Assembly (NCBI GenBank): GCA_948470475.1
Contig: OX419338.1
Location: 36,118,595-36,182,594 of the forward strand
From: Galaxea fascicularis
Lineage: Eukaryota; Cnidaria; Anthozoa; Scleractinia; Euphylliidae
Reading direction: 5' to 3'
Length of the DNA stretch: 64,000 nucleotides
The notes below the pieces were generated by a model, which ran no database searches, was not told where the DNA came from, and worked only from the letters and a program-made list of their open reading frames with translations. Positions 6,181-57,430 of this stretch are shown here, piece after piece. The position numbers and the translations under genes were made by a program. Positions within the stretch are counted from its first letter, which is position 1. Each line of letters begins with the position of its first letter.

Positions 6181-6195
6181 TGAAAAGAAGCGAAA

Positions 6196-9100
6196 ATGAC
6201 AGAAGAGGAAAATACGAAGCGAAAACGAACTCTACCGAAGCATTTACAGGACTACGTGGACGTACCGGGACAAACTACCGCTGCAAACAGTAAGCAAACA
6301 GAAAGCACTTCGATCAGGAGTGGCGGCAGTCATCGAACGAGCGAGAAAAGCGGCGGAACAAGCAAATCAAAATCATCTTCTGCTAAAGAACGAGCGAAGG
6401 AAGCTGCGAGAGAAGCCAGGTTGGCGAAATTAAAAGTAGAGCAGCTGAAAGAGAAAGCGTTACTGGAGGTTCAAATCGCTACTCAAAAGGCCGAACTCGA
6501 TGCCCAACTAACCATCAAAGAAGCGGAACAAGAAGCCGACTGGAAAGAACAAGAAGCGTTACTTCTGGAAGAGGAGGCAAGTGAAGATGAAATTAGCGAA
6601 AGAATGGATGAATTTGAGCAAAACGAGCCGACTGCAGACGATGTAAAGAATGTTAAAGTCGAGCAATGCGATACGAAGAAAGGAGATTTGCCAAGCAAAG
6701 ATGCTAAATTTGCCACTCAGAAAGTAACGGAATGGTTGAAGACGGTGACACCCAAACAGGAGCCTGACGAGTTCAATGAAAGGGCCAGAGTTCTCGAGCC
6801 AACAGAAGAAAAGGAAAAGTTTGCAAACTGGGCGAACACAGCACTCGGTAAGTCACCTTTGATGTCTTCACTTCCCAAAATACAATTGCCAGTATTTGAT
6901 GGAGATCCTTGTCATTGGCCAAATTGGTATGGCATGTTCAAAGTGCTTGTGGATGATCAAATGCTTTCCAAAACACAGAAGATGATTTATTTAAAGGCGT
7001 CTGTTAAAGGGTCGGCAGAGAAAGCCATTTCTGGAATGTTATTTGATGGAACAATGTATGAACAGGCAGTTGAAGAGTTGACTCTTCGGTTTGGGAACCC
7101 AGAGCTCATTTCAAGGTCTCTAATTAGAAAGCTGTTGGAGCTACCAACGCTAAAGGATGAAGATGTTTCAAGTTTGAGGTCATTTGTTGACAACATGCAT
7201 AACATTGTGAGGACATTGAAGTCCTATGGTCACAGTGCAGACGTGCAAGCAGCAGCCAACATGCAACAGGTTATGGACAAACTGCCCCCTAAGATTGCTG
7301 AAAGATGGAGCCGACGAAAAAGAGAATTGCAGCCCAAAAGAGTTGACCTCAGTGATCTTGACATGTGGTTGGAAACAGAGGTACAAGTTAAAGAAATGGT
7401 TTACGGCAGTGTGACTATTCCAGAGAAACCCAAGTATGAGCCAGGGAAGCCTAAGGCAAATGCAAGCAACCCAAAATGGAATTCAAGACGGCAGAATGGG
7501 CGAGTTAATGCGTTCATGACTTCAGCAGCCAAATTGGAATGCCCTATTTGCAGAAATGATCATCAGATCACCATGTGTGAGACTTGGAAGAAAGGGACTG
7601 TGGATGATCGATGGGAGTTAGCAAGGAAACACAATCTATGCTTCTTGTGCCTGAAACGAAATCACCGAACGTGGCGTTGTATGTCAAAGGATACCTGTGC
7701 AGTACAAGGGTGTGGTCGAAAACACCATTCACAGCTTCACAAAACGGGCATGCTGCGATTAAACCCAACTGCTGCCACATTCCATCCTCTGCAAACTGAC
7801 ACTGGTAATGCACAGCAGAGCACAACGCCTGAAACTCACGCAAGCTGTGGAATGACTGAGGAACCTGTTAATGCAAAACGTAATGAGAAGGTGGCTCTTC
7901 AGATGGTGCCAGTTATTCTTGAAGGGAGGAATGGAATCCGGATCAAAGCAAATGCATTCTTGGATGGAGGATCAAGCTCATCTTACCTTAGAGAACAAGT
8001 AGCAGACACTCTGGGACTAGAAGCAGAATGTCGACCACTTCGTATTGCAGTATTTGGAGCGAAGACAGTTGTAACGGACAGTAAAACTGTGACTGTGCAC
8101 GTAGAAAGTATGAATGGTGATACGAAGAGAGAAGTACTCCTGTGGACAACCCCGAGCATATGCAAAATGAGAGCAATGGATTGGTCTCAAAGTAAGGAAA
8201 AGCTGTGTCATCTTCGTGATTTGAAAATTGCAAAGCCAGTTGGAAGTGGGGAGATCGATTTGCTCATTGGTAGCGATTATTATGAGGAACTTCTCCTCCC
8301 TCTTGAGCACCGTGTTGGCAGACCAGGGGAACCTGTGGGTGTGAAGACTCCACTAGGATGGACAATCGTAGGACATGTGCCAGAGGGGATCAGTGGTTGC
8401 AGCACAGCCTGCCACACCTTTACCTTTCATGCTAACCCTATTCCTGAGTTACAAGCCGATGAATTGATGCGTAAGATGTGGGATGATGAACTGGCGGGGC
8501 TTGGCGATCAAAAGAAGCAGCTGACTGCAGAGGAGATGTACGCTGAGCGTAAGGTGGCCAATTCGAGGCGTTACATTGGTGGGCGTTACGAAGTAGGAAT
8601 TCCGTGGGTTGATGATCAACCGCCATTGTACTCCAACAGAACAAGTGCTGAATCTCGGCTCGTTTCCCTTGAAAAGCAACTGCAAAGAAGACCGGATATT
8701 GCCGAGAAGTACTGCCAAGTGATGGAAGCAAATGTAACCAAAGGATATGTCAGGAAGGTAGAGCCACCAGAGGTAGATGATGGGCCAAGCTGGTACTTAC
8801 CTCACTTCCCTGTTGTGCGAGAGGATAAAGAGACCACAAAAGTGAGGATAGTGTACGACTCTGCCGCTAAGTACGGAGGGATCAGCCTCAATGACACCAT
8901 GTTACCTGGCCCAAAATTGCAGCAAGATGTCTTTGATGTATTACTTCGCTTCCGCAACAACCCAGTTGCCCTTGTAGCTGACCTGAAAGAGATGTTCTCC
9001 CAAGTCATCATGGCTAAGGAAGACAGGAAATATCATCGATTCCTTTGGCGTGGGCTAGAGCTTACGAGACCTCCAGAAGTTTACGAGGCGGTGAGCTTGA

Positions 9101-11793
9101 TGTTTGGTGACCGTGCATCGCCTTATATGGCTCAGTACGTTCTGCGCCAGCACGCCAAAGATTACCAAGAGGAATATCCAACAGCAGTGGCAATCATCCT
9201 CTTGCAGATGTACATGGACGATGTCCTGACTTCACTGGAGACAGATGACGAAGCCTTAAAGGTTCGCGATCAGCTCATTGATCTACTCGGGAAAGCGGGA
9301 TTCAAGATCCGACGATGGTGCAGCAACAAACCTAAAGTGCTGGAGGACATACCCCTTGACGATCGAGTAGCAAACGTGAAAATCGAGGAAGCAGAGCTGC
9401 CCTGCATGAAGGCGTTGGGGGTTCAGTGGAATGCAGAAATTGACGCGTTCACCTTTAAGTTGAACCCGCCAAAGGACATTGAGTACACAAAACGAGGATT
9501 TCTGAAGAAACTTGCCACCCTGTTTGATCCTCTACAGATGCTAGCACCATTCACAATAAGGGCAAGAATGGCTCTACAGGAAACTTGGTTACTTGGCCTC
9601 AGCTGGGACGAGGAATTTCCGGATGAGTTGAAGAGAAGGTGTCAAGCTTGGTTTCATGAACTGTCAGAGCTTGCTGGTGTCCAAGTCCCAAGGTGTTACC
9701 GAGTAGCTGGAAAGCGTGTTGTTGAAACCACAATCCACACCATGACAGATGCGTCGCAACTGGCATACGCGGCCGTAAGCTATGTGCGTAATGAATATGA
9801 AGATGGAGAAGTATCCGTACGGTTTGCTGCGGCAAAAGCCAAGGTTGCCCCAACAAAAGCGACAAGCATCCCTCGCTTAGAGTTGATGGGGGCGGTGTTA
9901 GGATTAAGACTGTCCAGAAGGGTCTCAGAATTGTTGCAAGTGGGCTTTGACAGTTGTACTTTGTGGACGGACAGTGAGGATGTTATTTGTTGGATTCAAG
10001 GTCAATCTAGGAGGTACAAAACCTTTGTGGCGAACAGAGTATCTGAGATACACCAGAAATCCAACCCCAAGCAGTGGCGTCATGTTCCGACTCACCTGAA
10101 CTGTGCTGATGATGCTACCAGAGGTCTTCATGCGCGTGAATTGACAGCCAATCACCGTTGGTTCCATGGGCCCGAATTCCTGTATGACATTCCAGAGAAT
10201 TGGCCACAAAAGAAACATATCAAGGAAGACGAAAGTTCTAAAGACTGCCGAGCTGAGGTCACAAAGCCCAAAATGACATTTGTGGCAGAAGTTTCCAAGC
10301 CATTGATAGATCCCCTGAAGTATTCAAGCTGGACAAAACTGATAAGAGTGACTGCCTGGGTATTGCGGTTTATTGGAAAACTGCTAAGCAAGGTGAAGAA
10401 AGGAGGAAGCGCCGTTCCCACGTTAGTGAGAGAAAATTTGTTGACCCCAGTTGAGCTGGAAGAGGCTGGAAAGTTCTGGGTGAAGCAGGCACAGATCGAG
10501 AGATTCCCCATGGAAGTGCGAAATTTGAATGGTGGAAGGGAGATTAGCAGTCAGAGTCCCTTGAAACAGCTGACGCCTATAATTGACAAGGAAGGAATGT
10601 TACGAGTTGGGGGACGCCTTACCAGAGCAGCTCTTCCCTATGATGCCATGCATCCAATGATCCTGCCCAAGAAACATCACATTACTCGGTTGATTGTAGC
10701 AGATGTCCATGGTCGTTGTCATCATGCAGGAATAAATCACGTGTTGGCCCAAGTTCGCCATCGATATTGGATCATTGATGGCCGGCAAGAAGTTAAGAAT
10801 TGGGACAGAGAGTGCAAAGTGTGTGAAAAGAGGCGTGCAGCACCAGCAACGCAGATAATGGCACCTCTTCCAGAGTCAAGACTAGGAACACCCATGAGGG
10901 CTTTTGCAAAATCATGTGTGGACTATGCAGGGCCATTCATAACTAAGATCACGCGAAGAGTTTCAGCTAAGAGATACCTCTGCCTATTTACCTGTTCAGC
11001 CACTAGAGCGGTTCACCTGGAGATCGCCTTTTCGATGAGCACAGCAGATTTCTTGAATGCGTTTAGCCGAATGGTTGCCACAAGAGGACGACCTGAAGAA
11101 GTCACTAGCGATAACGGAACAAACTTTGTGGGGGCAGAAAGGGAGCTGAGAGAGCTGATCCAGTCAATCAACCAGAAGGAGATTGTGGATGACTGTGCCA
11201 GTAAAGGCATCAAGTGGAATTGGAATCCACCCCTTGGTTCGCATTTTGGTGGCGTGTTCGAGTCGCTGGTTAAAGTAGCCAAGAAAGCGTTGAAGTCAAT
11301 CGTGGGAAATGCAGGGCTGAATGATGATGAACTCCAAACTGCCATCAAAGAAGTAGAGGGACTTATGAATTCACGACCATTGTCGTATGAGGGAACAGAC
11401 CCCCGTGATGAACCTGTGCTGACGCCGAGCCACTTCTTGATAGGGCAATTAGGAGGACAGCTGGCTCCCCGAGTAGCAGATGAAGTGGCATTTAACCCCC
11501 GAAACAGATGGAGATTGGTTCAGGATCTCGTTAAGGTTTTCTGGAGGCGCTGGAGAGAAGAATTTCTGTCAACGCTCAACACTCGGAAGAAATGGAGAGA
11601 GGCGCGTGACAACCTTAAAGAAGGAGACGTAGTACTTGTGGTTGATCAGAATGCACCACGAGGCAAGTGGCACCTGGGACGAGTGATGGAGGAGTTTCCA
11701 GGCCAAGATGGACAAGTGCGAGTCGTTAGAGTGAAAGTCCAGGGTCACGATTACATCCGCCCAATCACACGGTTGTGCCCATTGAGTGTTTGA
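6196..11793 (+). CDS. BEL/Pao gag-pol polyprotein (1865 residues, intact)
   Basis: Retrotransposon polyprotein read in one frame with no stop. Order of parts: Lys/Glu-rich coiled-coil N terminus (about 1-200); DUF1759-like gag core (about 225-370, 'LPVFDGDP' then 'WPNWYGMF'); Cys/His region (about 448-515) with a zinc knuckle of form C-x2-C-x4-H-x4-C; retropepsin region with 'FLDGGSSSSYL' (about 585); reverse transcriptase with catalytic 'YMDD' near 1005; RNase H/Pao peptidase region ('MTDAS', 'IPRLELMGA', 'WTDSEDV'); integrase H2C2 zinc finger (about 1505-1545); integrase core with the expected D, D ('SDNGTNF') and E ('GGVFESL'); C-terminal DUF5641 ('DVVLVVDQNAPRGKWHLGRV'). The protease carries DGG rather than the usual D(S/T)G. 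There is no envelope gene. The ATG directly follows the primer site. Confidence 0.96.
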   Translation: MTEEENTKRKRTLPKHLQDYVDVPGQTTAANSKQTESTSIRSGGSHRTSEKSGGTSKSKSSSAKERAKEAAREARLAKLKVEQLKEKALLEVQIATQKAELDAQLTIKEAEQEADWKEQEALLLEEEASEDEISERMDEFEQNEPTADDVKNVKVEQCDTKKGDLPSKDAKFATQKVTEWLKTVTPKQEPDEFNERARVLEPTEEKEKFANWANTALGKSPLMSSLPKIQLPVFDGDPCHWPNWYGMFKVLVDDQMLSKTQKMIYLKASVKGSAEKAISGMLFDGTMYEQAVEELTLRFGNPELISRSLIRKLLELPTLKDEDVSSLRSFVDNMHNIVRTLKSYGHSADVQAAANMQQVMDKLPPKIAERWSRRKRELQPKRVDLSDLDMWLETEVQVKEMVYGSVTIPEKPKYEPGKPKANASNPKWNSRRQNGRVNAFMTSAAKLECPICRNDHQITMCETWKKGTVDDRWELARKHNLCFLCLKRNHRTWRCMSKDTCAVQGCGRKHHSQLHKTGMLRLNPTAATFHPLQTDTGNAQQSTTPETHASCGMTEEPVNAKRNEKVALQMVPVILEGRNGIRIKANAFLDGGSSSSYLREQVADTLGLEAECRPLRIAVFGAKTVVTDSKTVTVHVESMNGDTKREVLLWTTPSICKMRAMDWSQSKEKLCHLRDLKIAKPVGSGEIDLLIGSDYYEELLLPLEHRVGRPGEPVGVKTPLGWTIVGHVPEGISGCSTACHTFTFHANPIPELQADELMRKMWDDELAGLGDQKKQLTAEEMYAERKVANSRRYIGGRYEVGIPWVDDQPPLYSNRTSAESRLVSLEKQLQRRPDIAEKYCQVMEANVTKGYVRKVEPPEVDDGPSWYLPHFPVVREDKETTKVRIVYDSAAKYGGISLNDTMLPGPKLQQDVFDVLLRFRNNPVALVADLKEMFSQVIMAKEDRKYHRFLWRGLELTRPPEVYEAVSLMFGDRASPYMAQYVLRQHAKDYQEEYPTAVAIILLQMYMDDVLTSLETDDEALKVRDQLIDLLGKAGFKIRRWCSNKPKVLEDIPLDDRVANVKIEEAELPCMKALGVQWNAEIDAFTFKLNPPKDIEYTKRGFLKKLATLFDPLQMLAPFTIRARMALQETWLLGLSWDEEFPDELKRRCQAWFHELSELAGVQVPRCYRVAGKRVVETTIHTMTDASQLAYAAVSYVRNEYEDGEVSVRFAAAKAKVAPTKATSIPRLELMGAVLGLRLSRRVSELLQVGFDSCTLWTDSEDVICWIQGQSRRYKTFVANRVSEIHQKSNPKQWRHVPTHLNCADDATRGLHARELTANHRWFHGPEFLYDIPENWPQKKHIKEDESSKDCRAEVTKPKMTFVAEVSKPLIDPLKYSSWTKLIRVTAWVLRFIGKLLSKVKKGGSAVPTLVRENLLTPVELEEAGKFWVKQAQIERFPMEVRNLNGGREISSQSPLKQLTPIIDKEGMLRVGGRLTRAALPYDAMHPMILPKKHHITRLIVADVHGRCHHAGINHVLAQVRHRYWIIDGRQEVKNWDRECKVCEKRRAAPATQIMAPLPESRLGTPMRAFAKSCVDYAGPFITKITRRVSAKRYLCLFTCSATRAVHLEIAFSMSTADFLNAFSRMVATRGRPEEVTSDNGTNFVGAERELRELIQSINQKEIVDDCASKGIKWNWNPPLGSHFGGVFESLVKVAKKALKSIVGNAGLNDDELQTAIKEVEGLMNSRPLSYEGTDPRDEPVLTPSHFLIGQLGGQLAPRVADEVAFNPRNRWRLVQDLVKVFWRRWREEFLSTLNTRKKWREARDNLKEGDVVLVVDQNAPRGKWHLGRVMEEFPGQDGQVRVVRVKVQGHDYIRPITRLCPLSV

Positions 11794-28354: not shown

Positions 28355-28388
<34 letters not shown>

Positions 28389-31300
28389 TGAGCATCGCAC
28401 GGACGTCACGAGGTCACGGGTTCAAACCCCATTGTAGTCCTGAATTTTTTCAGGTTTATTTACGGATTTCCATAACTGCGTTCACAACTGCGAGGATCAA
28501 ATTTTATTTCATTTCTGCAGTTCACATCCTAATCATTTATTTCATATACATCATTCAGAAACTGGGTAAGAGTTGAATGTGGGTCCGTTTTATGTTAATC
28601 CCACCGTGAAAGAGAGGGAGAGACACAAAAGATTTTGGGGAATAGCATTAATGGGTGCAAGGAGATCTGTAGACCTGTTGAAAAGACCATTGCTGAGTTG
28701 TTTCCGGACACTTCATTAAGAAAATAAGGACCTTCATATTTGAGAACGAATACGATTTTTCAAATCTTGTTCGCGTGCTTTAGATGATCACCAGTGACAT
28801 CAATCTTGTTTCTACAATCGTCTGATCTGCTGGTAAACAACAACGAAGAGTGAGGGTTCAGGGGAGGTGACTGGTGTGAAATTAGAAATTCATACTCGTA
28901 CTCTGTTTCGTACTCGAACTCAAATCTGATGGTCCCTAACGCCTAATGCGAAAGCATTGTTATGAAAATAAGTGAAATTGTTTTGCAAAGAAAGCTTATT
29001 TGTCAGAGGAAGGGCCATTCAACAAGATTCCCCGAAAAAGAGGAAGACAAACCAGAAAGGCTTTGAGACCTACTACTGACTGTCTGTTTTGAACCTTTTC
29101 AGAGGGTATTCCGCCAATCATCTGTCTGCTTAATAGCGACAATCCTGACGTTAAGGAAGGTGCTACACTTGCTCTGGCAAACATCACCACCGCTAACAAT
29201 ACAAACTGCAGGTAAGGCCATACTTCTCAGCCTTTTTTATTCTCTTTTTTGAGATTTTAAATTACTACTTCCCCTTTTTTCGTTTACTCCTCTTCCTTTG
29301 CGAAGTTATTTTCATTTTTTTCTCGTAGTAGTCATAAACACTATGGTCTGCATAAGAGGCGTTTAACAAGCCGAACCTGAAGCGCGAGACTTTGAGGGCA
29401 AGCGCGAACTTAAGAAGTAGATTCCATGTTTCGTGCGATCAATAAAAGATCACAGATGACGTCAAAAAGTGGCAAGAACAACAAAGTGGCTCGCGAAGCG
29501 ACACAAAAATTGGTTTTATTAACGGTTAGCCCTTCGTCAGAGCGAATCACGAGGCGACAGGCGAGTTTGTTCTCCACAAAGAAACGTGGTTCTTTTTTCT
29601 TCTTCTTGCTTTGAAATTTGTCCACTTCCTCGGCAAGACTTACGTCTTCGTTCGCCCAATGTCGTGAAATGTCGTCTAAATTTTCATAACTTTCCGCCAT
29701 TAAAAAAAAGAGGGAAAAAGTTTTAAGCGATGACATCTTCTGTGCATTCAACTATATACTGGGTATAACGTCATCCACTTAAAAAACCTCGTAACTTAGA
29801 GAAACCGCAGCTGTTAACAGTTCTTTGCTAAAAAAAAAAACATAAAAACGTCCTCAGGGAACTATAAGACAGCCTTGCACTTGGTTATCTGCTTCTCAGA
29901 GGAAAATGAGCTGTTGTTGTATTTACAGTGAATTGGTTGAGAAAGGCGGTATTGATCCTTTGATAACTCTCCTGAATGATGCTAAGCCGCTGGTTCAAGC
30001 TAATGCTGCTGTGAGCCTCACCAACCTGGCAGCAGAAGGTATTTTTAATGCTAGAAGACGGACCATTAAAACAAATGATGTAGCGGAGGGGGTGGGGATG
30101 GGGGATTTTCAGTTTGGATGATTTTTGTTTTTCGCCCATTGCTTGTGCAGCAATTTTTTTTTTTGCGTGTGCCTGACTTTTCTTTTCTTTGCCTTCTTTG
30201 TACGCCTTTGTTTCTTTTCCTTTCCCCTTGCTTGATTTTTTTTTTTGCTTTCTCACCCCCCCCCCCCCACCTCCCATCATGTTTCTAACGGTCCCTCCCT
30301 AATTGTAAAAGGCATATCCATGATTCAACACAACATCAGAAATCAGCAGTAATGTCGTTGCCTTGCAATTCAATTGCCACAGTTTGTTGGATTTCGCGCG
30401 CTTTCTGATCGTTATGCATGTTTTGCCTCTTCACCAGCACTGGGCGCACGTTGTGTAATTTCCCGCCCTTGGCGTCGGTTTCAAGCTTTTCTTCCATTTT
30501 GATTTGCTTGTCGCGTTATTTACCTTTGCTGCGACAAGCCAGGTGCGAAAATAAGATGTGCTTCATTTGGGATTTGATGACCGAGGTTTAATTGCAAAAT
30601 AACAAATCAATAGAAGAGAGCACTTAATAACGGTTTGTGATCCTGATTTCAGAATCTTGGAGATCCGAAATTCAGCAAAGAGGAGTTGTTCCGGCTCTTG
30701 TGCAAGCTTTACAGTCTAAGTAAGAGCCATAAAGTTAAAGTAAACCTTTACTCGGGCCTCCTTTTTATCGTACATAAATAACGTTCCTTCATTTAGCTTT
30801 CCCTGTCTTCGAGATTATCCCCCTTGGAGATTACACACTCAAATGGCTAGTCAAAAAAGGATGGTGGTTTAAAAGTAAACAGATTTTGTTGACTCCGTGT
30901 ATGGTAAAAAACATTGGTGATTAAACCATAAGCATTACCTCCATTTCCTTGCTTGGTCAAAAAAGTATCATGGTTAAAACCAAACACATTTCGGTGATTA
31001 GTTTAAAAAGTATGGTTTGGAAGCTGACCTAAACTCGGCGTCTGATAGGCTGAATAAAGATTTTGAAGCCTTGCTATTTTTGTTTGTTTGTTTTCAGCGC
31101 TGCTGTGGTGCAGAGTAAGGCTGGGATAGCAGTTGCGGCCTTTGTTTGTGATGCCGACTCCAGAAATGAGGTGAAAGTGTGGTTCGCTTAGTTTGCAGGT
31201 TTTTAGTTCAGGTGTTTTGCGTGAGATGTGTGATTCTCAACTCTTATAATTTGCATTCTGGAGGTATAAGTATTACTCTGAAATTATCGATGTATTTTTT

Positions 31301-51929: not shown

Positions 51930-52532
51930 TTAACTCTGTAATTGCTTCCTATTGTCTTCAAAGTTCACGTCTCTTGGCTTCCTTTGATCCACAGTTACTT
52001 TCATAGGTACCACAACACCATCTTTAACCGCTACTTTCACCTCGAACTGTCCAAACGAGCTAATCGGTTCCTCCACAGTTATACAGTGCACCGGAACATG
52101 CAGTTGATACTGCCTCTTGTACTCCAAAGCAAGCTGGTGCTCGTTCACTTCGAAGAATTCGTTCTCTTTTCGCCTAATTTTTAAATTCGTTTTTTTCAGA
52201 AATTCCATAAAAGTAGGGCAAACTTGGGATTCTGAGCTGGTATCAGCAGAAGTATCTTCTCGCAGATACTTTCTTATGTTTTCTCTCGTTGCGTACGCAG
52301 CTATGCCCTTAGGAACCAGGAAATTTCTAGCGTGTCCCCTTTCTACAGCCACCATTTGTCCAGCATTTCCGAGCTTCTCATGTTGCTCAATTAGAATGAC
52401 GGACAATTTTGGCTTTCTGTTCGGTTTATCTTTGGGCCGTTTCCATTTGAATTGATCCATTTTGCCCATGGCTCTTGAACACAGCTTTTGCGGGCTTTCA
52501 ATTCGCAAAATTTGTCGCGAAAGCTGCAACAT
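51930..52532 (-). CDS. MRPL9: Mitochondrial ribosomal protein bL9m, single exon
   Basis: Component of the mitochondrial large ribosomal subunit. A 200-residue intronless frame with a basic, Arg-bearing N terminus fit for mitochondrial import ('MLQLSRQILRI'). The L9 core is unmistakable: 'VILIEQHEKLGNAGQMVAV' followed by 'RGHARNFLVPKGIAAYAT', the hallmark of bacterial and mitochondrial L9. The C-terminal half (about 105-200) covers the second domain and ends in a charged tail. Human MRPL9 is 267 residues; this protein is shorter at both ends. Its 5' end faces SLC25A35, with 241 bases between start codons. Confidence 0.93.
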   Translation of the reverse strand: MLQLSRQILRIESPQKLCSRAMGKMDQFKWKRPKDKPNRKPKLSVILIEQHEKLGNAGQMVAVERGHARNFLVPKGIAAYATRENIRKYLREDTSADTSSESQVCPTFMEFLKKTNLKIRRKENEFFEVNEHQLALEYKRQYQLHVPVHCITVEEPISSFGQFEVKVAVKDGVVVPMKVTVDQRKPRDVNFEDNRKQLQS

Positions 52533-52773
52533 TTCTTACTTAATTACAAATGCAAGTACCACTACATTTATCAACCAAACATGGCCGACTATCTTCATGT
52601 AAGATGAGAAACCGGTAATTAGCCAATGAGAGAGGGTGTAAGATCCCAACATTTTTCGTTCCTCCGCTGGCCAAGTAAACATCTTTGTCGAGTACCCGAC
52701 TTTAATAGAGCGCTCTGTTGAGACTTACCTGTTTTTGCCAGGGCTTGTTTGGTTTCTATTTCATCTTTCAAGG
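52533..52773. promoter_or_regulatory. Divergent promoter region MRPL9 / SLC25A35
   Basis: 241 bases between two outward-facing start codons of genes for mitochondrial proteins. A CCAAT box (AGCCAATGAG, about 52622) is central; no TATA box. Confidence 0.6.
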
Positions 52774-54288
52774 ATGCAGTCGCAACTAAAAGAATTTGGA
52801 TTAGGTGGAGTCGCAGCTTGTTGCGCTTGCTTTTTCACAAATCCTTTAGAGGTGGTTAAAACACGCATGCAACTTCAAGGAGAACTGAAGGCGCGAGGAA
52901 CGTACGCAAGGCACTACAAGAACGTCTTCCATGCGTTTTATACAATCGCCCGGTATGATGGCCTGAGAGCTATACAAAGCGGCCTCGCTCCAGCTCTTGT
53001 TTACCAAGCAATCATGAACGGATGTCGGCTTGGATCGTATCAAGTTTTAACCAATTTACAATTCACTGCAAACAAGGAGGGCAAAATCGAATTTTGGCGT
53101 TGTCTGGTCGCCGGCGCAATTTCTGGAGCTATCGGGGCATATTTGGGAAGTCCGGCGTACATGGTGAGTTGTAGAAAGCTATTTTTGTTGTTGTTGTTGT
53201 TTTTCTTTTTTAGTTTTTTGTTCTGTGTGAGGAGGCAAAGAGACGTTTCCCAAGTCACAAATATTCTAGCTGATGTTGCGTGACTAAAGTGAAACGATTA
53301 CATTTGTCACGGCAAAATATTCAGCCACGTGACGGCCTTCCGGCAAGAAGACTTGTGGACAAGTTAAAGCAAGTAATGGCAAGCAATAAAACACGAGTGA
53401 GCCAGGCTTTACTTAGCTGGCAGACGTTTTTCCTCAGCATATGCGTGCTGCACTCTAGCCCAATGACAGGGTATAAACGTAACTTCATGTCACCCAACTT
53501 CTTCAGTCCCTGATTGTCTCAGCCACTAGAAAGGCACACTGTCATCAGGTCTGTTAGTCTTCATATCTTAATGACATCCTCTAAACATCTTTCCAAAGAA
53601 TTTTTCCCATTATCGTCTGATGCAAAAGAACAGGGATGAGCCTTGTTTCCTTAAATTAGTAAATAGTGCACTCAGTTTTGATATTTTTTCTCTTTCTACA
53701 AGATGATAGTAAAGATGCATTAAAAATTGTGAAAGCCTCTCATCTAGGCTTCCTTATATATTTAAGGTAAAGACACATCTGCAATCGCAGGCAACAGAGA
53801 CTATCGCTGTCGGCTTTCAGCACAAGCATAGTGGGTTTGTTAGCGCTTTGTCTGGAATCTACAAGCAGTTTGGGATTGGTGGGCTGTGGAGGGGTGTGAG
53901 TGGTGCAGTTGCACGTGTCATGGTTGGGTCTGCTGTGCAGTTGTCTACTTTCTCCACAACAAAGCTGAAAATTGCTCAAACAAACTTCTTCAGAGAGGAC
54001 AGCTGGCTTATTCCAGCATCAGCAAGTATGGTTAGTAGTTTAGCTGTAGTATCGTGTATGACACCTTTTGATGTGGTAAGTACACGACTTTATAATCAAG
54101 GAACAACCGCAAGTGGCAAGGGACTCTTGTACAATGGTTTTCTGGACTGCTTTATCAAAATATCAAAGCAAGAAGGCTTAACTGGGTTTTTTAAAGGTTT
54201 AGGGCCACACTACTTTAGAATTGGCCCACATACGATTTTAAGCTTGCTGTTTTGGGATCAGCTAAAAAAAATTTCTGCCTCAATATAG
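52774..54288 (+). CDS. SLC25A35: Mitochondrial carrier, solute carrier family 25 member 35, two exons
   Basis: Inner-membrane mitochondrial carrier; the substrate of this member is not firmly established. Exons 52774-53163 and 53767-54288, 303 residues (human 300). Three Solcar repeats are visible with carrier signatures '[15 protein letters not shown]' (about 25), '[13 protein letters not shown]' (about 127, interrupted by the intron exactly after 'YM') and '[13 protein letters not shown]' (about 223; Ser replaces the usual Lys, as Cys does in the human protein). It ends '[20 protein letters not shown]...'. The frame is open further upstream but without an ATG, so 52774 is the start. AATAAA at 54483. 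Confidence 0.93.
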
Positions 54289-55905: not shown

Positions 55906-55970
55906 CAACGAGAATATATGTGCGTTGCATAAGAGGACAGTGTAATTTAATATTATTAATATTATTAGTA

Positions 55971-57162
55971 TCCCGGCGTTGTCAATCAATGGTTTCCGAT
56001 CGATTGATTGCAATCAATACAATCAATAATAATCAATAACAATCCATTGATTGTTATTGATTGGTGCACCAATCAATAAAAATCGATAATCACACTCGGA
56101 GTCTTAATTGCTATTGATTACCATTGATTTCTATAGAAAATCATTGATTAATAATTCATTATGCAACTTTCTGGCGCGTTTTAGCGTGGGCGTGCTTCAT
56201 TGGTTCCGGGCATATTTACACGTCCAGGGTAATTGGGTAATTCGATTGCGCACTTTTATCCTTGCACTTCAACCGGGATTCCCAGAACACACTTGTTACG
56301 GAGTTTGCTTGTTCCAGAGATGGCGAAGCAAGTTGAATTGTCAGTGCGCTGTGTAGTCAAGGGCTATCACGAATGCCCTTTTGAAGGGAATGTCGGAGAA
56401 ATATTCTATGCATTCAAGAAGAGAGGAGAACGTGGGAATGCGTTCAGAGTTACGAATGATCGGGGGCAGCTCGGCCATCTTCAAATCGAGCTTGTTGGTC
56501 CTCTTTGGCCCTTACACAAAGAGATTACTGTGTAAGTTTAAAAATGCCACAATACATTACAAGGGAAGCGCATTTTCCTTTTAACAATTATTCTGCTATC
56601 TTCCCTTTCGGTTGCACGGGTGAATGTTCAAGATGTATGTTCTTGGCCTGCATGCGTATATTCAGGCAGCATGACAGTGAGCGCAGACAAAAACAATTTC
56701 CTCAACTAATTAACAAGCTGGAAGAGAGTGACACTGAAGAGACTTAAAGGACAAACCATTCAGTTTGGGATATACCGCCCTTTGCAGATTATATGATTAG
56801 AATTAAAGACAATTTTGTTCTTGTTTCGAGACGGTCAGAGTCCAGTAATTTAAGTGAGCTTTTAATAGCAATAAGGGGTAAAAATGCTACAAATTTAACA
56901 TAAAACACAACAAATAAAGATAACTGAATGGTTTGTTCATTCATATGGTGCGTTTTATTTAAGAAAACGACAAATTTCGTAATCAATAAAAATCAATAAT
57001 AATCAATAACAATCGATGAAAATCAATAGAAATCGATAGTCACACAACTTTTAGGCATTGATTTTTATCGATTTCCAATACCAATCAATTAATTGTTATT
57101 GATTATTATTGATTATTATTGATTTTATCGATTATCGGAAACCATTAATTGACAACGCCGGG
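55971..57162. mobile_element. TIR element with ATTGATT-rich arms carrying a HIRAN-like gene
   Basis: Ends CCCGGCGTTGTCAATCAATG (left) and CCCGGCGTTGTCAATTAATG (right, reverse complement) continue as about 190-base subterminal arms made of CAATCAATAA/ATTGATT repeats in both orientations. TAGTA flanks both sides (55966-55970, 57163-57167), a likely target duplication. The 0.8-kb interior holds one spliced gene and no transposase, so it is non-autonomous or moves with a trans-acting enzyme. Confidence 0.65.
56320..56747 (+). CDS. Small HIRAN-like protein, two exons, inside a TIR element
   Basis: Exon 1 56320-56531 (ATG after GTTTGCTTGTTCCAG), intron GTAAGT...TATTCAG, exon 2 56666-56747: 97 residues. 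The first 70 residues resemble the HIRAN-type fold found in many cnidarian transposon-linked proteins: 'GYHECPFEGNVGEIFYAFKK' then 'NAFRVTNDRGQLGHL'. HIRAN modules of known proteins (HLTF/Rad5) bind 3' single-stranded DNA ends, but the similarity here is weak and seen by eye. The 27-residue tail is charged ('HDSERRQKQFPQLINKLEES'), helical and acidic at the end. Splice signals are canonical and join in phase. It may be a captured or element-encoded DNA-binding protein; function is not shown. Confidence 0.5.
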
Positions 57163-57430
57163 TAGTATATACTAAAACTGTGCATAGCGTTGAAGGCGCG
57201 CGCTGATTGGCTACTCAAACTCCGGATATCCTGTGCTATTCACCTCCGAGCAATTCGCGCGGAATTTACGCCTAAAAATGTTGTAATCTTTGCAGGAATA
57301 AATGAGTTAAAATCATCTTTTTGTGCTATATTATCTCACTGTTTTAGTATATACGAAAACAACTATTCACCTCAGTGTTGGTGGCTAGTCATCCACCACT
57401 AGCCACCTCCACTTCGGTGAATAGTTGTTA
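57163..57430. mobile_element. Small TIR element and adjoining hairpin
   Basis: TATATACTAAAACTGTG at 57167 recurs inverted ending near 57353, marking a 190-bp MITE. A second structure follows: arms AACAACTATTCACC and its complement (57358-57429) enclosing GGTGGCTAG / CTAGCCACC. The larger element at 55971-57162 inserted at the edge of the first. Confidence 0.5.

Follow-up and report, generated by a model that had tools for sequence, protein, structure and literature searches.

The element at positions 55972-57162 of the 64,000-nucleotide stretch of Galaxea fascicularis DNA analysed here (GCA_948470475.1, contig OX419338.1; hereafter the window) is best read, with a probability of roughly 0.62, as a non-autonomous DNA transposon that is mobilised in trans and carries what is left, in truncated form, of an old HIRAN gene with an accessory role. 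The terminal inverted repeat (TIR) element lies between TAGTAT repeats, and its features are as follows:

55966..55971, unstranded: left target site duplication, TAGTAT, 6 bp
55972..56000, plus strand: left terminal inverted repeat, CCCGGCGTTGTCAATCAATGGTTTCCGAT, 29 bp, pairing with the right end
56001..56160, unstranded: left subterminal AATCAAT/ATTGATT array, many motifs spaced 10 bp
56320..56531, plus strand: predicted exon 1, N-terminal half of a HIRAN-like domain (from copy alignment, fold matches and dN/dS)
56532..56665, plus strand: predicted intron, GTAAGT...ATTCAG (from donor and acceptor conservation, with the junction placed by P0007 and P0025)
56666..56747, plus strand: predicted exon 2, short form without the VTG...GGG..NVPV half of the domain (from comparison with relatives)
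56913..56918, plus strand: AATAAA, possible polyadenylation signal (consensus match only)
56976..57133, unstranded: right subterminal AATCAAT/ATTGATT array (from motif count)
57134..57162, minus strand: right terminal inverted repeat, 29 bp
57163..57168, unstranded: right target site duplication, TAGTAT, 6 bp

The two 29-bp ends are 97% complementary, and the end pattern, allowing up to three mismatches, matches the window only at these two sites and never in 100 shuffles. Motifs of the AATCAAT/ATTGATT type number 13 in the left arm (55972-56160, 189 bp) and 13 in the right (56976-57162, 187 bp), are absent from the 815 bp of the element's middle, and have a density of 0.45 per kb elsewhere in the window; within the arms, the heptamers are frequently spaced at 10 bp. 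These counts bear out the ATTGATT-rich inverted arms described in the earlier note. The flanking TAGTA reported there is indeed a direct repeat, though its true form is the 6-bp TAGTAT. Open frames within the window element are all 100 aa or shorter, which leaves no space for a transposase. Beyond the right end, the element adjoins another repeat (57163-57429), with inverted arms GTATATACTAAAACTGTG at 57165-57182 and 57337-57354; a hairpin (57358-57429, arms of 32 bp) comes after them. To the 5' side of the element, frames within 51930-54288 resemble, by eye, mitochondrial ribosomal protein L9 (minus strand) and a mitochondrial carrier (plus strand).

Searches of the assembly (416.6 Mb, 170 contigs) place the element in a dispersed family. 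The end pattern CCCGGCGTTGTCAATNAATGG, with at most one mismatch, occurs at 66 forward and 66 reverse places in the whole genome, whereas the reversed control gives no match in either direction. Loci were drawn from a gene-bearing DNA query (189 candidates, 40 scored, 151 matches), a full-length protein relative (101 matches), and the end pattern; L037 was left out as a duplicate of L086. With a two-ended copy defined by an end match over 21 bp with at most five mismatches, both ends are present in 55 of the 62 loci examined, the remaining seven (L038, L039, L040, L047, L092, L094, L098) lacking paired ends. Exact flanking duplications of 6-9 bp accompany 52 of the 55 two-ended copies (all but L013, L022, and L099), and all 52 strings are distinct; about 0.013 copies with duplications of at least 6 bp would be expected by chance. 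The longest exact duplication is 6 bp in 21 copies, 7 bp in 26, 8 bp in four, and 9 bp in one. The proposal, originally made from a single locus, of a mobile TIR element with one spliced-looking gene and no transposase is upheld. Among the 100 end-pattern places listed of 132, 70 make 35 pairs spanning 782-2558 bp and 30 are unpaired; no pair of ends among these 100 lies more than 2558 bp apart.

Several copies depart from the common form. The extra length of L086 and L041 is inserted sequence unlike the element; L043-L046 are longer too: close to where exon 2 begins they contain additional sequence, some 345 bp or more, and in L043 and L044 a short direct overlap at this point resembles the trace of a further insertion. 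L092 retains the left end only (284 bp), L098 runs into an assembly gap, and L094 is a 65-bp right-end stump beside long frames that by eye resemble a tyrosine-recombinase retroelement. Large open frames of 1757 and 911 aa around exon 1, considered as possible fusions, proved to be assembly gaps.

The window gene opens with an ATG at 56320 and closes with a stop at 56747, giving a predicted product of 97 residues. The two exons with canonical splice sites recognised in the earlier note hold up across the family: the donor GTAAGT is kept in 32 of 35 aligned copies (exceptions L044, L048, and L049), and every copy except L049 keeps the acceptor ATTCAG (34 of 35). Two protein relatives bear on the junction, P0007 crossing it at the expected place (...KITV-IVTGSP, protein letters) and P0025 corresponding to the intron end followed by the exon (...QIFRIVTGSP, protein letters); both are consistent with a donor GT/GTAAGT and an acceptor ATATTCAG/A, and hence with the predicted splicing. 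A third relative, P0001, was dropped as proof of splicing because its junction is incompatible with GT-AG on the window sequence. The two-exon reading frame is intact in 18 of the 35 aligned two-ended copies, the window included, with L032 (compensating frameshifts only) and L044 (changed donor) as weak members of this set; at a single exon 1 residue, the window copy departs from the majority.

HIRAN is a DNA-end-binding repair domain found within large remodellers. The resemblance to it that the earlier note suspected is supported for the gene family by the structure model of the full-length relative P0007 (pLDDT 79, pTM 0.71), whose 12 best Foldseek matches in the PDB are all HLTF HIRAN (E <= 7.6e-4), with Rad5 next. 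Profile searches against PDB sequences placed HLTF at the top five of 12 and the top five of six matches, with weak E values of 0.05-0.07. These models support a HIRAN-like family in which the whole-domain fold, shared with the HLTF and Rad5 structures (6kcs, 4xzf, 4s0n, 6l8n), is present in the full-length relative. In HLTF, the DNA cavity residues of HIRAN are given as Y72 and Y93 (PMC4666394). Unlike HLTF and Rad5 HIRAN, the gene described here stands alone as a small gene in a transposon, has lost the second half of the domain in its window form, and lacks a Pfam HIRAN match: a Pfam scan of the window protein returned no families, and a scan covering 39 relatives (E <= 10) listed 11 families, HIRAN not among them.

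Judged by its sequence, the window gene lacks the C-terminal half of the HIRAN domain, and the complete domain was not found; the VTG exon, which encodes this second half, has no match below E 0.3 anywhere in the window. Alignment of the short exon 2 to the VTG exon, of which it may or may not be a worn form, gave p values of 0.016-0.98 for five targets and 0.07 when summed. P0001, a close relative of the window protein, yielded a poor model (pLDDT 56); the fold search with it found nothing at E <= 0.001, and HIRAN is missing from the 50 matches listed of 152, although a poor model of this kind would not prove that the short protein is unable to fold. A DNA-end-binding module as the sole cargo is too strong a description of the window copy.

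Exon 1 is complete in 46 of the 55 two-ended copies, partial in one, and absent from eight; the figure of 46 is inflated, since gene-bearing queries supplied most of the loci. Seven of the eight copies without exon 1 (L048, L091, L093, L095, L096, L097, L100) bear exact 6-7 bp duplications, and the gene is thus dispensable in cis. Ten of the 30 unpaired end-pattern places, picked because they were absent from the gene-search listings, were fetched; seven proved to be two-ended copies without exon 1, the other three being L092, L094, and L098. An identical deletion (query 310 to 636) is common to L091, L093, L095, and L100, which indicates that this exon-1-less branch itself multiplied. Copies of another size class, about 780-800 bp long, retain exon 1 and are missing exon 2, as judged from size and spacing and seen directly in L049. 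Copies without the gene had been anticipated as a sign that it arrived by chance insertion; such copies do exist, but a chance origin does not follow from them, since the missing parts are internal deletions and the gene is also found in a second TIR subfamily.

The second subfamily, with the end CCCGGCGATATCAATNAATG, carries the gene too; the suggested genome-wide search for copies with the same ends has thereby yielded both a family and a gene common to two TIR subfamilies. An end variant with a base other than T at position 8 occurs at seven places in the genome, six of which start with CCCGGCGATATCA, the seventh (C12:20829126) being the window-family copy L030 with an altered end. For five of the six CCCGGCGATATCA ends, an exon 1 match is found no more than about 1 kb away, C4:4129714 being the exception; one of the five, L084, has lost its other end. 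L105 (688 bp) and L106 (654 bp) are two-ended, with a decayed exon 1 and 6-bp duplications (ATAATG and CTTTCA, respectively, by eye). No full HIRAN gene was detected between family ends in 11 element loci, and L106 and L105 gave matches only at E 0.08 and 0.24, respectively.

HIRAN sequences without family ends are present in the same genome as well. L080 and L081 are decayed two-half (full-length) relics, and L101, L102, and L103 contain the second half. These unlinked copies show an older and wider family of small HIRAN genes. L104 holds an open, unlinked HIRAN first half (2427-2648), again without family ends, which may be a live small HIRAN gene. The second halves in L101 (2456-2599) and L102 (2608-2465) share one in-frame stop and thus look like copies of another repeat with a dead HIRAN gene.

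Between the subfamilies, exon 1 of L022 (window subfamily) and L084 (second subfamily) differs at 16.5 of 47.2 synonymous and 16.5 of 162.8 nonsynonymous sites (dS 0.47, dN 0.11, dN/dS 0.23; Fisher p 4e-4 on rounded counts). Protein identity to other subfamilies is 0.74 in exon 1 as compared with 0.48 in the translated upstream stretch (13 proteins); for exon 1 of L104, L081, and L080 against the others, dS is saturated and uninformative on selection. As read from these substitutions, exon 1 was under purifying selection while the TIR subfamilies diverged. The constraint might alternatively reflect time spent as a host gene, if a MITE-like element had picked up a host HIRAN gene once and the gene had rendered no service to the transposon. 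Unlinked copies without family ends (L080, L081, L104) do occur in the genome, and DNA transposons are known to have picked up unrelated genes, as with TET/JBP (PMC12730594); yet the gene occupies a matching place in two TIR subfamilies separated by an exon 1 dS of about 0.47, so that the constraint postdates entry into the element lineage unless the gene was captured twice, and we regard host capture as unlikely. Counting against an accessory-gene origin, in turn, is that no transposase or autonomous partner was found in these searches.

Within the window subfamily (31 copies, with L032, L041, L048, and L049 left out), changes from the majority affect 1.35% of sites in exon 1, 1.36% in the 5' UTR, 1.11% in the intron, and 1.14% in the 3' UTR, with exon 2 (0.79%) below the other parts. 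Exon 1 changes comprise 20 synonymous, 62 nonsynonymous, and four stop changes (expected 23.4, 58.8, and 5.0), for a dN/dS-like ratio of 1.23, and those of exon 2 comprise 0 synonymous and 20 nonsynonymous changes (expected 8.0 and 20.1). Protein identity within the same subfamily is 0.94 in exon 1 and 0.84 upstream (p 0.0008, five proteins), a comparison in which 22 of the 24 upstream mismatches come from one frameshifted row (P0035, 12/34); a paired count gave 5.2% and 4.9%, with no difference. Copies of this subfamily drift neutrally, and the gene looks like one that was once selected and is at present a decaying passenger, though inserted copies of a gene that still works would be expected to drift neutrally as well, so that this does not alone prove a dead source gene. 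Were the short protein still working, as a trans-acting helper or regulator of the family whose truncation had changed its function, the intact frames (with L032 and L044 as weak cases) and the small differences among copies, about 1%, would both be accommodated. The exon 2 changes, the poor P0001 model with HIRAN absent from its listed fold matches, and the spread of exon-1-only copies and of copies without exon 1 nevertheless make a working short protein distinctly improbable. That the HIRAN protein itself drives transposition, in an element of a new type that dispenses with a DDE transposase, is highly implausible: it is the only gene present and the listed TIR places include no more widely separated ends, but HIRAN is not known to have catalytic activity, and copies whose gene is truncated or missing have spread, so that another activity is required anyway.

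For a trans-mobilised transposon with a HIRAN remnant, movement would be by cut-and-paste, with a transposase supplied in trans recognising the CCCGGCGTTG...CAACGCCGGG ends and probably also the 10-bp-spaced AATCAAT subterminal arrays. The target would be cut with the 6-7 bp stagger recorded in the duplications. The ancestor of at least two TIR subfamilies would have carried an accessory HIRAN gene, kept under purifying selection as these diverged, and the single gene would be what is left of it; by analogy with HLTF, the intact protein may, for example, have kept excised or nicked 3' ends in place for the transposase. In the window subfamily, the second HIRAN half would then have been lost, the shortened gene spreading as a passenger that now decays, and deletion derivatives with exon 1 only or no exon 1, having the same ends, would be mobilised likewise. 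Carriage of HIRAN alone by a mobile family, selected across two subfamilies, suggests recruitment of an end-binding repair module by a transposon, and in this family the change from accessory gene to decaying passenger would be plainly visible and countable.

The many copies, shared ends, and individual duplications, with no transposase inside the window element, are those of a non-autonomous TIR transposon. The strict definition of a MITE, which excludes coding sequence, does not describe the family, as 18 of the 35 aligned copies have an intact frame, though exon 1 is missing from some derivatives. MITEs, including the coral CMITEs (PMC2872659), are similarly small, with inverted ends and many copies that are probably mobilised in trans. 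CMITEs, however, are linked to piggyBac-like elements with a TTAA duplication (PMC2872659), whereas the window family carries an intron-containing gene and has varied 6-7 bp duplications, which likewise set it apart from piggyBac and Kolobok (TTAA duplication). Dada elements (PMC3706591) share duplications of 6-7 bp, the longest repeat being 6 or 7 bp in 47 of 55 copies here. They are described as having no terminal inverted repeats, a large transposase, and insertion in small RNA genes (PMC3706591), and were rejected given the TIR and the 52 different duplication strings. IS3EU elements (PMC10045372) usually have 6-bp duplications, where 7 bp is most frequent in the window family, and complete IS3EU families are reported always to have TA..TA termini; the CCCGGC..GCCGGG termini of the window family exclude this assignment.

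Non-transposase genes on DNA transposons are also known from Kolobok, with its accessory proteins (PMC9587614), and from TET/JBP transposons (PMC12730594). These elements are described with a transposase, which the window element lacks, and the accounts (PMC9587614, PMC12730594), as far as they go, note no HIRAN gene. Among the openly searchable papers listed by literature searches, titles and opening abstract lines mention no HIRAN gene in a eukaryotic transposon. We tentatively raise, as a possibility only, an undescribed lineage or superfamily of animal DNA transposons with its own stand-alone HIRAN holding 3' ends, of which the window element would be a defective branch; its marks would be the CCCGGC..GCCGGG ends, 6-7 bp duplications, and 10-bp-phased AATCAAT arrays, setting it apart from Dada, IS3EU, piggyBac, and Kolobok.

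Outside the assembly, the exact end pattern has no matches in a viral contig collection, and the 58 stretches there that match the peptide pattern encode no relative. A prokaryotic genome contig collection gave 30 peptide-pattern matches, of which two (L001 and L002) were called relatives; these were judged to be chance, and both sit in 415-aa frames that by eye resemble M16-type peptidases. Elsewhere in the window, an open frame of 1869 aa (6184-11793) resembles, by eye, a BEL/Pao-type retroelement polyprotein, and a match to tRNA at 28368-28440 (34.1 bits against an Rfam threshold of 29) may represent either a tRNA gene or a tRNA-derived repeat.
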